From positions 1 to 44,124 of IMG/VR virus record IMGVR_UViG_3300030329_001638: DNA of 44,124 bases. One strand, 5' to 3'. The notes under the pieces are model-generated. The model worked only from the letters and a program-made list of their open reading frames with translations. It did no database searches and was not told the origin of the DNA. Both the position numbers and the translations under genes were made by a program. The stretch comes from a virus. Of this stretch, positions 2,005-44,124 are shown one piece after another. Position 1 is the stretch's first letter, and every line of letters starts with the position of its first letter.

Positions 2005-2558
2005 GTAACTATGGAACTATTTGGGAAGATGCACCAAATGAGGAACGTGAAATAGATTGGATAAATGAACAAAGGGCAGAAAAAAATCTAAATCCGATTG
2101 AATTTGATGACATAGAATTTAATTATGCTGATTTTTATAATGATTTAGCAGAATTAATTACTGATGAAATAGAAGGTGAATTAAAAGAATTCGTCTATTC
2201 AATTAAGTTTAATAAACTTAAAAGCCCTCGAGAATATAACTTCGCAAATGATTCAATACATTGTGAAATAAGACCAAAAATAAAAGCTATTAGAGAATAT
2301 ATAGAATCAAACTTTGATAAATGGAGTAAGTATTTAGAAGATAATTATACATCTTATGATGGTTTTATTTCCCACCATAGCAATTCAAGTGAATCAGATG
2401 AATGGCAGATTAATAAAGCTTGTAAGGATGGGCATAAATTGGGTGCAATTCTCAATTTTATTGGACTGAACGAAGGTATAGATGAGTGGGATATTTATGA
2501 TAATGTTATAGGTAATATCTCAATAGAAATAAAAAACTATAATAAATTAATAAAATAA
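1953..2558 (+). CDS. Conserved hypothetical protein (201 aa)
   Basis: Preceded by AAAAAAGGATAAATAAAA, a clear ribosome site. The protein begins MKYNIVQSIPTWLPIYSGNY and contains SPREYNFANDSI and TSYDGFISHHSN. I recall this pattern from hypothetical proteins of phages and mobile elements, without a function. It is acidic with no membrane segment. It sits directly after the acidic 102-aa gene and probably shares its transcript from 1258. Its first 52 bases recur at 44073-44124. Confidence 0.75.
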   Translation: MKYNIVQSIPTWLPIYSGNYGTIWEDAPNEEREIDWINEQRAEKNLNPIEFDDIEFNYADFYNDLAELITDEIEGELKEFVYSIKFNKLKSPREYNFANDSIHCEIRPKIKAIREYIESNFDKWSKYLEDNYTSYDGFISHHSNSSESDEWQINKACKDGHKLGAILNFIGLNEGIDEWDIYDNVIGNISIEIKNYNKLIK

Positions 2559-3615: not shown

Positions 3616-3821
3616 TGGATAAGGTAAAAATACCACAAAAAGGCTCTTTTCGTTATGCTGATGGGATTACTTCAAAATTAAAACCCTTAAAGATAGGCGA
3701 ATATGTTGAAGTGCCCCATAGTAAAGCAAAAAGTAGTTATAATTGTGCAAATCAGATGGGGATAAAAATTTGCACAAGAAAAATTAGTGAAATGCACACA
3801 AGAGTTTACAGGATAAAATAA
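3615..3821 (+). CDS. Small basic protein (68 aa)
   Basis: ATG at 3615 overlaps the previous stop (TAATG), and GGATAA just downstream belongs to the repeat described at 3293. The pattern KGSFRY...KLKPLKIGEYVEVP...TRKISEMHTRVYRIK resembles a common small phage protein whose C-terminal 'tRk...g..V.RI' may bind nucleic acid. That role is a guess from composition. Confidence 0.65.
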   Translation: MDKVKIPQKGSFRYADGITSKLKPLKIGEYVEVPHSKAKSSYNCANQMGIKICTRKISEMHTRVYRIK

Positions 3822-3835
3822 TAATTAAATTAAAT

Positions 3836-3865
3836 TGGAACCAAATCAGATTTGATTTGTTAGTA
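3836..3865 (+). promoter_or_regulatory. Promoter-like motif TGGAAC-N18-TTAGTA
   Basis: TGGAAC at 3836-3841 with TTAGTA 18 bases on. The sequence TGGAACCAAATCA and the downstream TAGTAGTATGAA are shared with the site at 8441, so these two form a subclass. Confidence 0.45.
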
Positions 3866-3896
3866 GTAGTATGAACAACAAAAAAGGAACAAGAAA

Positions 3897-4235
3897 ATGA
3901 AACACACAAAAGGACAATGGGAAGTCAGTAAAACCGGAGCATCCGTCAATATAAAAAGTGGCGATGTGTGGATTGCTGGAATCCATAATCAAGACACAAT
4001 GACTGAAGGTAAATCAATTGTGGATAAGGATTGCTATGATACTTCAGAAACGGAGGCCAATGCAAACCTAATTGCATCCGCACCGGATATGCTAAAAGCC
4101 CTCAATGATATAATGTGTTATTTCTCAGAATATGAGGAGGATTATAATGAGAAATTAGAGTGCTTTGAATACGCAAGAAAAGTCATTTCCAAAGCGGACT
4201 CGTCGCATTCGCAATTAGAAAGTGAGGTGGCGTGA
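3897..4235 (+). CDS. Conserved phage protein of the 'HTKGQWE...ANANLIASAPDML' type (112 aa)
   Basis: The N-terminus (HTKGQWEV), the central EANANLIASAPDMLKAL and the overall size match a very common family of phage early proteins of unknown function. ATG at 3897 follows AAAAAAGGAACAAGAAA. Its last codons (ESEVA) lie in the first AGTGAGGTGG junction, and the stop TGA overlaps the next ATG by one base. First gene of the junction-motif operon. Confidence 0.75.
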   Translation: MKHTKGQWEVSKTGASVNIKSGDVWIAGIHNQDTMTEGKSIVDKDCYDTSETEANANLIASAPDMLKALNDIMCYFSEYEEDYNEKLECFEYARKVISKADSSHSQLESEVA

Positions 4236-4411
4236 TGGTCGTACGTGGTGCAAAATATCAAGACAAAGAAACAGGAGCGATTAAGAATTACCAAGAAATA
4301 GCATCGGAATTAATCGCAATGCAACAATGTTGCTCGGAATTTGACGACTACGATGTTGAAGATGTCATTGAAGAATATTATAGTGAGATAGAAGCAAGTG
4401 AGGTGGAATGA
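4235..4411 (+). CDS. Small acidic protein (58 aa)
   Basis: ATG at 4235 overlaps the previous stop as TGATG, with GAGG 7 bases upstream. Begins MVVRGAKYQDKETGAIKNYQ and is acidic toward the end (FDDYDVEDVIEEYY). Ends in SEVE, encoded by the next junction repeat. Too short for a listed family. Function unknown. Confidence 0.65.
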   Translation: MVVRGAKYQDKETGAIKNYQEIASELIAMQQCCSEFDDYDVEDVIEEYYSEIEASEVE

Positions 4412-5624: not shown

Positions 5625-5824
5625 TGACTTTTTTATCCAAAGAACAACAGAAATTTCTCGAAGATAACGGTTGGGATTTAATTGATAGTAAAGATGGTGC
5701 CATTTGGGCAGGTTGGGATTGGGATTCAAAAGAACACCCTTTACGTACTATCGGTAGGCAAACGGAACTTGAAGATAGTAGAGGGTATGACTTTTTAATA
5801 ATCGGCAAGAAAAAGGTGAAGTGA
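5624..5824 (+). CDS. Hypothetical protein (66 aa)
   Basis: ATG at 5624 overlaps the upstream stop and has GAGG 8 bases before it; a start at 5591 would lie inside the previous gene. Trp-rich (NGWDL, AIWAGWDWDS). Stop overlaps the next ATG at 5824. Function unknown. Confidence 0.6.
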   Translation: MTFLSKEQQKFLEDNGWDLIDSKDGAIWAGWDWDSKEHPLRTIGRQTELEDSRGYDFLIIGKKKVK

Positions 5825-5928
5825 TGGATGTCTGTATGAATCATCTAATTGGCCTAATCATTATTTTTATCGTAACGCTTTTAGCATTAGTGATAAGTAT
5901 AAACAATAGGGAAAAAGAAGATGACTAA
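5824..5928 (+). CDS. Tiny single-pass membrane protein (34 aa)
   Basis: ATG at 5824 overlaps the previous stop as TGATG after AAGGTGAAG. Residues 7-26 (HLIGLIIIFIVTLLALVISI) form one strong membrane helix, followed by a short charged tail NNREKEDD. Its last codons overlap the next gene at 5921. Early, very short phage membrane proteins often target host membrane processes, but no target is visible. Confidence 0.6.
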   Translation: MDVCMNHLIGLIIIFIVTLLALVISINNREKEDD

Positions 5929-6181
5929 AGTATGTAAGACCTGTAAGAAACGAAAACCGCATAGCGATTTTGACACGTACCACAGGAAACCCGACAGGCA
6001 TAGACCACATTGTGTTGTATGCCAAAATGAACACCGAAAATCGAGGGATTGGCAGGGGTGGAAAAAGGGTTGGCCTTATAAAGGTGATATAGAGGATGCT
6101 GATTATTTGTCAGACCGAAAATCTTTGTTTGATTATCATGGTAACGGTTGGTGGTGGGGGCAAGGTGACAAGGAAGCGTAA
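5921..6181 (+). CDS. Zinc-binding protein, HNH-related N-terminus (86 aa)
   Basis: The first 40 residues contain CKTC (5-8) and CVVC (31-34) separated by a basic linker with HSDFDTYHRKPDRHRPH, the usual zinc-knuckle part of phage HNH-like proteins. The remainder lacks a DH...N...H nuclease core, so I call it zinc-binding only. Start overlaps the upstream gene by 8 bases, and its 3' end overlaps the next gene, a real HNH nuclease, by 17 bases. Confidence 0.65.
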   Translation: MTKVCKTCKKRKPHSDFDTYHRKPDRHRPHCVVCQNEHRKSRDWQGWKKGWPYKGDIEDADYLSDRKSLFDYHGNGWWWGQGDKEA

Positions 6182-6659
6182 GTATTCTACAATGCAACAC
6201 GACATACTGAATCTTCGCGCTAAAGGCCTATCATATAGACAGATAGCAGAAAAACTAAACTGTTCTAAGGCCACTATAAGTTATTGGTTAGACCCGAATG
6301 GAAAAGCGAAAGTGGTGGCAAGGAATAAACGATATAAAAGTAGGTCAAACGGCAAGTGGGCAAGCAGAAGGGGGGCGATTTGGAAGTATAATTACTTGTT
6401 GGATAAGCATTGTGAGAAGTGTGGTGAAGATAATATGCTGATGCTACAATTTGACCATAAGGGTGGACACGAAAAGCATTCCAATATTACCGATTTACTT
6501 AACGGAAATTTAAACAAACTCAAAAACGAGGTAAAGAAGTGCCGAGTGCTTTGTGCGAACTGCCACCAAAAAAAGACTCTTAAAGCAAATAAAACGGCAT
6601 TCTATACCACATACAAAGAGAGAGAACAGGAGAGAAAAAAACATGGATGCAGAAACTAA
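6165..6659 (+). CDS. HNH endonuclease with N-terminal helix-turn-helix
   Basis: With GTG at 6165 the protein is 164 aa. Residues 15-42 (RAKGLSYRQIAEKLNCSKAT plus ISYWL) form a resolvase-like helix-turn-helix. Residues 80-137 form an HNH domain: zinc pair CEKC (83-86), catalytic DH (97-98) and CANCH (130-134). This matches free-standing phage homing endonucleases or DNA-processing HNH enzymes. A longer start at 6096 would lie inside the upstream gene, and the extra residues are not domain-like. No intron is seen nearby, so its cleavage site is unknown. Confidence 0.82.
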   Translation: MTRKRKYSTMQHDILNLRAKGLSYRQIAEKLNCSKATISYWLDPNGKAKVVARNKRYKSRSNGKWASRRGAIWKYNYLLDKHCEKCGEDNMLMLQFDHKGGHEKHSNITDLLNGNLNKLKNEVKKCRVLCANCHQKKTLKANKTAFYTTYKEREQERKKHGCRN

Positions 6660-8147: not shown

Positions 8148-8438
8148 ATGATAAATACACCAACAGTAAAAGTGTCTGACTTATTAAAGATACTACCGAA
8201 AGAAATAATTGACGAATGCGAATGGCACGCAGATGATGTTATCGTGATAACAGTTGGAGAGACATTGTTAAGCGATGGGTCTTCATTCAAGTCTATATCT
8301 TTAGATGAAGAGCATGACTGTGCGGATATGGATAGCGATAACGAGAACATTCCGATGAGCAAAAAGGAATTGGCGGGATATATCGTTTCTAATTCTATCG
8401 AACTTGTACAGATGTTAGAAAAGGAAGATGAAACTTAA
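8148..8438 (+). CDS. Hypothetical acidic protein (96 aa)
   Basis: Starts two bases after the upstream stop. Begins MINTPTVKVSDLLKILPKEI and carries a very acidic stretch (LDEEHDCADMDSDNENI) followed by a helix. Last gene before the structured RNA region. Function unknown. Confidence 0.65.
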   Translation: MINTPTVKVSDLLKILPKEIIDECEWHADDVIVITVGETLLSDGSSFKSISLDEEHDCADMDSDNENIPMSKKELAGYIVSNSIELVQMLEKEDET

Positions 8439-8440
8439 AT

Positions 8441-8470
8441 TGGAACCAAATCACAACTCAAACATATAAG
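8441..8470 (+). promoter_or_regulatory. Promoter motif TGGAAC-N18-TATAAG ahead of the structured RNA
   Basis: TGGAAC at 8441-8446, 18 bases, TATAAG at 8465-8470. A transcript would begin near 8477, just before the first helix of the structured RNA at 8496. Shares TGGAACCAAATCA and TAGTATGAA with the site at 3836. Confidence 0.6.
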
Positions 8471-8495
8471 TAGTATGAATAAGAAAAATTTAAAC

Positions 8496-8793
8496 TTGAT
8501 AACACCGCTAATGAAAGTCAAGGGAGGTAGCACGCTGTGATGCCGTCGCTCGGACATAGCAATAGACTGCCGTACAGGGAGAGAGAGACTCCTTTAAGTG
8601 TTATCAATGATGGGGCTTGGTTGTTTCCTCGGAACAGTGAATCAACACCTGCGCCAAGCCCTTGTAACTTGAGCCTCTACAACCCCGAGTGTCTAATGAG
8701 CGTGCACTTGGGGTCTCGGAGAGAACCGAGGTGCCCACGGGTGGTGCACCCCAAGGTTGAGAAAAACGTAAAACAACAAACTCAGAGGCTCAA
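8496..8793 (+). ncRNA. Candidate large structured RNA, three domains, unassigned class
   Basis: A gene-free, GC-richer stretch with extensive complementarity. Domain 1 is closed by TTGATAACAC (8496-8505) with GTGTTATCAA (8598-8607), perfect 10 bp. Inside are 8520-8526/8589-8595, 8527-8532/8568-8575 (2-base bulge) and 8534-8539/8555-8560. Domain 2 is closed by GGGCTTGG (8613-8620) with CCAAGCCC (8654-8661), containing hairpin 8622-8636. Domain 3 is closed by TTGAGCCTCT (8669-8678) with AGAGGCTCAA (8784-8793), perfect 10 bp. It contains 8683-8691/8705-8713 (9 bp), CTCGG/CCGAG (8715-8730) and GGTGC/GCACC (8730-8750). An alternative, CTTGGGG 8707-8713 with CCCCAAG 8749-8755, would allow switching. 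The ribosome site AAAGGAGGG of the gene at 8814 follows, so it is either a 5' leader or a separate RNA. I do not recognise a known class. Confidence 0.72.
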
Positions 8794-8813
8794 AAAATTA
8801 AAGGAGGGCATAA

Positions 8814-9017
8814 ATGTTAGTGCTTAATCTAACCATAGAAATACAATGTGAGGGGAACAACGAAAGTAAGTTAAACTTTAAGTTTTATCCTATAGAAAAA
8901 CTTGAAGCATTAATACAGTTTCTTAAAAATCTTGAGTCTGATATAGGCTATCTTTCTTTCAAAGTAAATTTCGAGGTGTATGATTATTTGGAGGGGATGT
9001 CAAGTGAAAAAGAATAG
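8814..9017 (+). CDS. Hypothetical protein (67 aa)
   Basis: ATG at 8814 with a strong ribosome site, AAAGGAGGGCATAA. Pattern MLVLNLTIEIQCEG...LNFKFYPIEKLEALIQFLKN suggests a beta-hairpin followed by a helix. First gene after the structured RNA, so it is the gene that RNA would control if it is a leader. Overlaps the next gene by 14 bases. Confidence 0.65.
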   Translation: MLVLNLTIEIQCEGNNESKLNFKFYPIEKLEALIQFLKNLESDIGYLSFKVNFEVYDYLEGMSSEKE

Positions 9018-9428: not shown

Positions 9429-10422
9429 CGTGGAGGATGTGATTCGAGATACGGCACAGCCACGTCAAGATTGGGCAAAGAACGAGAAATCATTACAGGC
9501 TCTTACTGAAGACATTAAGGAGAGGGGTTTATATTACCCCATTATTGTTGCTCCCTTTGTCAAGACGAGTAACAGCGAACTGATTCTTGGAAAGAAGGCA
9601 CTCAAACATAAGGATAGAAAATGGTGGATATTAGATGGTGAGCGCCGGTGGCTCAGCGTAGCACATCTCGGACACGAAACCATTGATGCAATGGTGCGTA
9701 CTGATTTAAGTCTGCTTGAGATGATGCAGATTCAATTTGCATCCAACACCAAGAGATTGAACGTAGCTGTAACGGAAATGTCGAAGGCTATCGTGAGGTA
9801 CCGGGAAGAATACTATAAAGAACACGGTGAATACAAGGAGTCTGACTTTATTAATTCGCTTTGTTCTTTAACCGGCCTTTCAACAACGTACTTTCAAAAT
9901 GTTGAAGCCATTAATAGAGCGGATGCTGACATGAAGAAAAGTGTTCTGGCCTATGAGGTTGGTGGATACACACCTTCCGAGATAGAGAAAGCGACCAAGG
10001 ATGAGGATTTACGAAGAGGTATAACCGATGCCTACCTTGAATCTGAAAGGCAGATAGGTGCCAACGCTCCTCGGGCCATAAAGTATGACCTAAAACTCAT
10101 TGAAGCTGAAGACAACCACTCGCCGGAAGAAAAACGCCTTTTGGGCAAGCAGGTTTTCCTCGACTTCATCTATCAAGATAGGGGCACTAAAGACACAGAG
10201 CCCCACTTTCTTTTGTACAGACAAAAGGCAACGAAGTTTCTACGTGAGGTTCGCCGATGGAACTTGGGTGGGCTGAAAGATAAAGAGGTTGCCGAGCTTG
10301 TTGGATTAATTGAAAATGTGTATAATTACTTCAAGGAAGATAGGAGACTCAACGGACAGATGCTTTCAAGTAATATGGGAGAAAATATTCTTGGTAAAAA
10401 ACCAAGGAAGGACGAGGCGTAA
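9394..10422 (+). CDS. ParB-like DNA-binding protein
   Basis: 342 aa. The ParB/Sulfiredoxin-type N-domain is clear: QPRQDW (22-27), LTEDIKERGLYYPIIV (37-52), DGERRW (81-86, the phosphate-binding GERR box) and SNTKR (117-121, matching the ENxQR box). Residues 122-220 look like the helix-turn-helix region (LSTTYFQNVEAINRA; GYTPSEIEKA). Plasmid ParB proteins load at parS and slide using CTP. Phage homologues may instead regulate transcription or act in DNA replication. No ParA is present nearby. ATG at 9394 after GGAGAGAAAAAATCA. It is the largest early gene and heads the DNA-processing region. Confidence 0.8.
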   Translation: MKKEKRTIAKINVEDVIRDTAQPRQDWAKNEKSLQALTEDIKERGLYYPIIVAPFVKTSNSELILGKKALKHKDRKWWILDGERRWLSVAHLGHETIDAMVRTDLSLLEMMQIQFASNTKRLNVAVTEMSKAIVRYREEYYKEHGEYKESDFINSLCSLTGLSTTYFQNVEAINRADADMKKSVLAYEVGGYTPSEIEKATKDEDLRRGITDAYLESERQIGANAPRAIKYDLKLIEAEDNHSPEEKRLLGKQVFLDFIYQDRGTKDTEPHFLLYRQKATKFLREVRRWNLGGLKDKEVAELVGLIENVYNYFKEDRRLNGQMLSSNMGENILGKKPRKDEA

Positions 10423-41740: not shown

Positions 41741-41989
41741 TAATACTATAGTACTATATATTAATACTATAGTACTATTATAGTACTATATACTACTACT
41801 ATAGTAATATATACTACTATAGTAATATTATAGTACTATTATAGTATAGTAGTACCGCGAAGTAGAAAAGTAGTACCCGCGAAGCATCCCATCCCACAAT
41901 TATCAAATAACCTTCTAGTATATAATATAAAAGTACTACAGTAGGACTACAGTAGTATTACAGTAGTGCCGCAAAAACCCCAAAAATTT
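41741..41989. repeat. TATAGTACTATA palindromes and GTACC(C)GCGAAG repeats
   Basis: Perfect 12-bp palindrome TATAGTACTATA at 41747-41758 and 41779-41790, many partial copies to 41860, then AGTAGTACCGCGAAG and AGTAGTACCCGCGAAG (about 41848-41885). A second run of CTACAGTA-type words lies at about 41936-41968. The stretch has no gene and separates the divergent early and late blocks. Likely control DNA: multiple operator sites, a packaging-recognition region or an origin. Confidence 0.7.
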
Positions 41990-43321: not shown

Positions 43322-43347
43322 GGTCTAAAATATATTTATAAAGGGCC

Positions 43348-43577
43348 ATTCAGGTAGGTAGTCTATTTTTTTTTAGAAAAAACATTCACGTAGGTAATTC
43401 ACGTACGTAGTACAATCTAATTTTATTACAGAAATTCACGTAAGTAGTGTATTATAGGTACAATTCACGTAAGTAGTACAGATTCTACAATTAAAGTGCT
43501 ATTATATAGTATAATTCACGTAGGTAATGCAGAAATATTACAAAAAGGGTATTTTATAGAATAAATTCACGCAGGTA
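43348..43577. repeat. Right iteron array, 7 copies
   Basis: Copies start at 43348 (ATTCAGGTAGGTA), 43384, 43397, 43434, 43463, 43514 and 43565 (ATTCACGCAGGTA). The middle five match ATTCACGTANGTA exactly. All in one orientation; the second and third are directly adjacent. Same position relative to terminator, AT-rich stretch and promoter as the left array. Confidence 0.85.
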
Positions 43578-43726: not shown

Positions 43727-43759
43727 GGGTAAACATTTAATAAAAAAGGAAACTAAAAA

Positions 43760-44056
43760 ATGAAACAATCAGTAAGTATGTATGATTTTGAGAGGGCTTT
43801 CAAAAGATATGAGAGAGAAAATTTCTCTTATGATGGCTTAAAGGCTCTATTTGAATATCTTGAAGAGTTTGAAGCAGGTACAGGCGAAGAGATAGAATTG
43901 GACGTTATCGCCCTTTGTTGTGAATATGCGGAGTATGATAGCCTAAATGAATACAACGACGATTATGGCACCGAATACGACGAAATAGACCTAATCCAAG
44001 ATGATACTATGCTAATTAAAATTGATGATGAACGATTTATTATACAACAATATTAA
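43760..44056 (+). CDS. Acidic conserved phage/plasmid protein (98 aa), right copy
   Basis: ATG at 43760 after AAAAAGGAAACTAAAAA. FSYDGLKALFEYLEEFEAGT, IELDVIALCCEYAEY and the end IDDERFIIQQY match the left copy at 1628-1936. It lacks four residues near position 18 of the left copy and differs at about 30% of sites until the final 10 codons, where the DNA becomes identical. First gene after the promoter here, without the two small genes seen on the left. Confidence 0.8.
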   Translation: MKQSVSMYDFERAFKRYERENFSYDGLKALFEYLEEFEAGTGEEIELDVIALCCEYAEYDSLNEYNDDYGTEYDEIDLIQDDTMLIKIDDERFIIQQY

Positions 44057-44072
44057 AAAAGGATAAATAAAA

Positions 44073-44124
44073 ATGAAATATAATATAGTACAATCAATAC
44101 CAACTTGGTTACCAATTTATAGTG
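44073..44124 (+). CDS. Start of the 201-aa hypothetical gene, cut by window end
   Basis: The 52 bases are identical to 1953-2004 and encode MKYNIVQSIPTWLPIYS. It is the same gene as 1953-2558, met again after going round the 42,120-bp circle, or a duplicate if the repeat is real. Confidence 0.75.
   Translation, partial: MKYNIVQSIPTWLPIYS

Follow-up and report, generated by a model that had tools for sequence, protein, structure and literature searches.

Directly behind a promoter-like site, positions 8496 to 8793 of the window were found to specify a structured RNA of about 300 nt that is assembled from separately closed modules. The comparison with homologous loci demonstrated selection on the RNA structure, together with its module anatomy, the position of the promoter, the shuffling of the modules and the covariation of a palindromic loop. 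The explanation to which we incline is that the RNA acts in its own right, as a homodimeric scaffold and not as a switch of one gene; our confidence in it comes close to even without reaching it, and transcription, dimerisation and action in trans are inferred.

The window is the whole stretch of DNA that was analysed, a 44,124-base IMG/VR virus record (IMGVR_UViG_3300030329_001638, positions 1 to 44,124). It can be assigned to a tailed phage, since matches to terminase, portal and major head protein were obtained in PHROGs, and no close sequenced phage relative was found. Small genes on the plus strand occupy its left part and structural genes on the minus strand its right part. No tRNA was detected in it by ARAGORN. 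Near both record ends, at 880-1110 and 43345-43570, about ten ATTCACGTAGGTA-like iterons were observed, with a promoter-like site, TATGGAACTTTT, behind each array; the stretches that flank them, 1614-2004 and 43745-44124, share 79% identity. A long imperfect inverted repeat is located at 41791-41958, past the structural gene block. The features of the RNA and of its surroundings are the following.

8441 to 8470, plus strand: promoter-like site, read in the sequence, whose GGAAC is kept in homologues
8496 to 8607, plus strand: module D1, with closing helix 8496-8505/8598-8607, inner helices 8526-8530/8567-8571 and 8534-8539/8555-8560, and hairpin 8577-8581/8589-8593
8613 to 8661, plus strand: module A, a three-way junction, with P1 8613-8620/8654-8661, P2 8623,8625-8627/8632-8635, P3 8637-8639/8646-8648 and the conserved loop AAUYAA at 8640-8645
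8669 to 8793, plus strand: module B, a multibranch domain, with P1 8669-8678/8784-8793, P2 8683-8688/8708-8713, P3 8715-8719/8726-8730 and P4 8739-8741/8750-8752
8720 to 8725, plus strand: P3 loop of module B, AGAGAA, read as A-GNRA-A (AGUGAA and AGAAAA in relatives, alignment A7)
8744 to 8749, plus strand: self-complementary hexamer GUGCAC in the P4 loop of module B, predicted homodimer kissing loop
8767 to 8775, plus strand: unpaired CGUAAAACA element of module B, invariant in the window, L004, L018 and L022
8803 to 8808, plus strand: ribosome-binding site GGAGGG, about 10 nt past module B, serving the next gene
8814 to 9017, plus strand: small downstream gene without a family match, in whose place other phages have different genes

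The original prediction had described a large structured RNA of three domains. The closing helices of D1 and module B (10 bp each) and of module A (8 bp) are perfect Watson-Crick helices, as it had claimed, and the further helix 8683-8691/8705-8713 pairs at 9/9 positions when one G.U is counted. The competing pairing of 8707-8713 with 8749-8755 does exist in the sequence. The view that chance would not easily produce such pairs was supported by 5000 dinucleotide-preserving shuffles of 8470-8813, only 3 of which contained at least two perfect stems of at least 10 bp. The folding of the window RNA gave an MFE z-score of -2.9, and none of 100 shuffles was equally good. The region is also richer in GC than its flanks (0.49-0.52 vs about 0.29-0.39 on either side), as had been noted. 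The single-sequence MFE of the window departs from the conserved structure, most of the outer helix of the second domain being opened, whereas the homologues clearly back this helix.

The first relative was reached through a ParB-like gene, upstream of which L002/L003 carry a copy of the second domain with a compensatory change relative to the window, from GGGCUUGG/CCAAGCCC to GGGUUUGG/CCAAACCC. Further family members were obtained by IMG/VR pattern scans and a Cas4-like exonuclease search. The layouts observed were as follows.

D1-A-B: window, L004, L042/L043, L057
D1, altered A, extra module, B: L044
D1-B, A missing: L045, L047-L056
A and short B: L006, L026, L027
short B behind a divergent A-like hairpin: L021, L023
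several further conserved elements, then B-A in reversed order: L018, L022
A followed by another hairpin, without B: L003, L005, L140
A alone: L122, L128, L147, L150

At the level of sequence, this comparison showed that whole modules get lost, inserted and reordered among the homologues. Every long helix of the original prediction has compensatory changes in them, so that its three domains stand; what it had missed is that the modules are interchangeable, that the second domain is a three-way junction whose core is conserved and that the third has a covarying palindromic loop.

Other searches were less productive. A GTDB genome scan with a module A strand gave five matches, all judged to be chance as the closing helix was absent. 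When the 3' end of module B and the core of D1 were used for scanning, only L004, L018 and L022 were real, the rest being chance matches; about two thirds of the CTCGGAGAGAACCGAG pattern matches were chance or unrelated, and most of what the last scan for module A matched was coding sequence. Among the distant Cas4-type relatives L066-L120, the covariance model found no convincing module B.

Several observations were made beside the main family. In L018 (about 3785-4340) and L022 (about 5635-6240), some 600 conserved non-coding bases precede B and A and contain several further closed helices; this may be a giant form of the window RNA. A circularly permuted module A (CUAUAAACRCACRCGGUU) is suspected in L018/L022/L122, with evidence that falls short of proof. 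Another recurring hairpin module with CACAACTA was found in the forms TTAGGGTATGGACACAACTAAAG...TATACCCTAA and GCGGGAGT...CCCACAACTA...CCCGC, located upstream of the RNA in L047-L056 and behind a zinc-finger-like gene in L006, L021, L023, L026 and L027.

Covariation was quantified for each module, leaving out the MAFFT alignments A2, in which the 3' arm of the short module B is misplaced, and A9, in which the arms are shifted. For D1, whose sequence is strongly divergent between loci, 67/70 cells of the closing helix were paired in 7 loci; exchanging the arms between loci left 39 cells paired on average and 53 at most. Compensatory changes are also found inside D1 between the window and L004.

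In module A the outer helix has 8 bp, the inner helix varies in length and the third arm is a 3-bp hairpin capped by the AAUYAA loop; the conserved bases of its junction are U9, G11, A24, C37 and G41 (module numbering). In 14 sequences all cells were paired (210/210) with both-sided changes in 9/15 pairs, values reached by 0/500 shuffles, and pairing fell to 28-43% when the partner was slid. This count, also made in a version with 9 sequences, treated variable inner loops as N and the structure had been read from the sequences, which favours the percentage paired and, to a lesser degree, the both-sided changes. L150 has an extra hairpin inserted within the junction.

For module B (11 sequences), 94.3% of cells were paired and both-sided changes occurred in 13/24 pairs (0/500 shuffles), P4 being the weakest helix with 73% of cells. 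Its covariance model detected the short forms, which lie outside the training set, with E values of 7e-5 to 3e-3. In L026 and L027, CGCAAAAC occupies the matching place of the CGUAAAACA element.

A self-complementary hexamer was found in the P4 loop of all copies of module B examined, in these versions.

GUGCAC: window, L004, L042/L043, L057, L044, L045, L047-L056
UCUAGA: L006, L026, L027
GUCGAC: L021
UCCGGA: L023
UCGCGG: L018/L022, self-complementary only with G.U end pairs

In the short forms the surrounding hairpin is nearly constant (GGGCGAGAU-NNNNNN-CUC) while the hexamer, which differs at 2 or all 6 sites, stays palindromic. A random hexamer is a palindrome with a probability of 0.015, and four independent ones would occur with about 5e-8, or 5e-7 if ten positions are allowed; these figures assume independence, and shared ancestry makes the true figure less extreme. 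As neighbouring bases of one loop cannot pair with each other and the palindrome is kept through the changes, pairing between molecules is suggested. The hexamer is thus predicted, from sequence comparison alone, to be a homodimer kissing loop. The mean unpaired probability of the hexamer in single-sequence folds was 0.83-0.95 in L042, L044, L045, L047 and L006. Lower values were obtained for the window (0.25), L004 (0.41) and L057, L018, L021 and L023 (0.45-0.57); most of the hexamer is paired in the fold predicted for the window itself, which counts against an open kissing loop. A second GUGCAC is present at 8702-8707, in the P2 loop of module B, and judging from its letters it could pair with the P4 hexamer inside one molecule. 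All long forms share GUGCAC, and the covariation of the hexamer therefore rests on a few lineages.

The promoter upstream of the RNA had been described as TGGAAC-N18-TATAAG, and both boxes are present (8441-8446 and 8465-8470). In 21/22 homologous loci a GGAAC-type site precedes the first module by 33-55 nt, L021 being the exception. From this near-fixed distance the RNA is expected to form the 5' end of a transcript, an inference made without expression data. The motif TGGAACYTTT-N~14-GYGTATAAAGGATAT is repeated in the window at 1258, 3836, 7146, 7734, 8441 and 43697 and occurs before the RNAs of relatives as well; it is presumably a phage-specific or special-sigma promoter. In L021 (about 9865-9905, minus strand) a tRNA-like 3' end (GGCGGGTTCGAATCCCCCTCTCGACACA) immediately precedes the RNA at the place of the usual promoter, which L021 lacks, and ARAGORN reported no tRNA.

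According to the explanation preferred here, a phage-type promoter would yield a transcript whose first ~310 nt are the RNA, and this would fold into three independently closed modules, D1, A and B. Module A would form a three-way junction whose core is conserved; module B would display an A-GNRA-A hairpin and the self-complementary loop, at which two copies of the RNA would most likely pair. The modules may serve as separate binding or docking units of a homodimeric scaffold, and the RNA is possibly freed from the transcript by processing. The covariation in D1, A and B, the lack of a coding signature, the spacing of the promoter and the variation by whole modules count in favour of this proposal. 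So do the changes of the downstream gene while the RNA stays: the window and L004 have a small gene that is not of the w8980 family, in L004 with its own promoter, a MIIFIL-type gene follows in L006/L027 and unrelated genes follow in other groups. On the other hand, the next gene in most close relatives (more than ten) belongs to the w8980 family, and this argues against an RNA acting in its own right.

A cis-regulatory 5' leader, whose modules would sense a ligand or protein or govern the stability and the translation of the early operon downstream, the dimer loop taking part in this control, remains a close rival and retains a considerable though lesser share of our belief. No intrinsic terminator is evident behind the RNA, no terminator-like U run being seen by eye, and a ribosome site, predicted directly downstream and present there, follows within about 10-20 nt (within ~25 nt in most relatives), an arrangement that is expected of a leader and weighs against the scaffold. 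The three-way junction with its conserved core is aptamer-like, and in L122, L128, L147 and L150 a start codon follows about 25-36 nt behind an isolated module A. In the short forms a GAGG lies within the 3' arm of module B and the arm leads into the AUG (GAGGCUCAUAUG), an arrangement that would hide the start site. Masking of the ribosome site by module A in the window was rejected as a general device: the MFE pairs the module A strand GCCCUU with GGAGGGC, but homologues do not keep this pairing, and a covarying helix competes with it. A leader is further disfavoured because the downstream genes are not conserved between groups, because another start site (L026) or another promoter (L004) intervenes between RNA and gene, and because the order and number of modules vary freely.

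The scaffold proposal includes a special case that we consider unlikely, in which the modules of a decoy RNA imitate binding sites, thereby sequestering a host or defence factor. Such a role would fit with modular units that can each be dispensed with and that follow a recurring phage promoter, and also with the tandem A-GNRA-A hairpins in leaders of other phages; no target is known, and no similarity to known RNAs was found in Rfam. These hairpins, with loops of CTCGGAGAGAACCGAG, GCAGAGAGAACTGC and similar type, occur two or three in tandem before the ribosome site (L011 10088, L016 10002, L030 4520, L032 839).

It is very improbable that the element acts as DNA (an origin, packaging or recombination site) with dyads that only resemble RNA helices: the dyads are perfect and the palindromic hexamer exists in DNA too, but the orientation after the promoter is always the same and the helices contain G.U pairs. 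A protein gene at 8537-8827 can practically be dismissed, in line with the original prediction of no convincing gene, although the frame is open for 96 codons and has a tblastn match to L004 (41%): between the window and this nearest relative the mismatches at codon positions 1/2/3 are 30/26/19, with third positions changing least and single-base indels shifting the frame, against 30/14/61 in the upstream comparison gene 8148-8438, and no family match was found.

Very few natural RNAs are known to act as homo-oligomers, and the phage examples, ROOL and GOLLD, are of unknown function. A family of ~300 nt is a far smaller test object: its modules are separable, nature provides variants in which they are deleted or reordered as well as four or five versions of the predicted dimer loop, and each module and this loop can be swapped and assayed. 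The three-way-junction module is also found by itself ahead of other phage genes, so that whatever partner it has may be common.

The original prediction could not match the RNA to tmRNA, RNase P, a group I intron or a known riboswitch, and the search of Rfam 15 led to the same outcome: neither the window nor 20 related loci gave a match at gathering level, and 8400-8900 gave none at E 10. Neither ARAGORN nor Rfam indicated a tRNA or tmRNA, and no convincing sequence match was found in 50,697 phage and 72,556 plasmid records of GenBank. The literature on ornate phage RNAs, as far as openly accessible papers go, describes other families.

Riboswitch-type leaders and hammerhead-type junctions resemble module A in its three-way junction, conserved core and position beside ribosome sites, but no Rfam riboswitch or ribozyme is matched, no ligand or cleavage has been shown, and the constant downstream gene or pathway of a riboswitch is not met, the genes differing between groups. 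A type I hammerhead ribozyme (37.6 bits) was detected at 2036-2091 (plus strand) of L057, a close phage relative, outside the window-type RNA. The packaging RNA of phi29 (~174 nt) is a phage RNA that multimerises by loop-loop pairing, as is predicted for the window RNA, but it does so with two different complementary loops; the window RNA lacks a match to the pRNA family. The retroviral dimer-initiation site (DIS) places a self-complementary hexamer in the small loop of a hairpin close to the 5' end of its transcript; the P4 loop is expected to work alike, though without homology, in a DNA phage and with an 8-nt loop (2 + 6) instead of 9. OLE RNA, which belongs to cellular bacteria and not to phages, likewise uses palindromes in a dimer kissing loop, though no Rfam match to OLE was obtained.

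Covarying palindromes served as evidence for homo-oligomers of GOLLD, and the same argument was made for OLE, whose dimer kissing loop switches between palindromes (PMC12286853). ROOL and GOLLD are ornate RNAs that form nanocages, and they share with the present RNA a large structure, an origin in phages or prophages and a lack of known function; their symmetric kissing loops have a counterpart here that is only predicted, from the covarying palindromes. They differ in size (roughly 600-800 vs ~300 nt), in that their covariance models do not match the window RNA, and in location: the latter follows a promoter among small genes and is not in a tRNA island. Their criterion of nearby tRNA genes is not met, with none in the window and a single tRNA-Met in L022, ~1.1 kb before the last elements there. 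A new class of phage RNAs, with interchangeable modules that form homodimers or larger complexes via the covarying palindromic loop and act in trans during infection, as a smaller counterpart of ROOL and GOLLD, can be advanced only tentatively. The RNA is a previously undescribed family within a known kind, the structured phage RNAs, distinguished by its modular build and predicted dimer loop.
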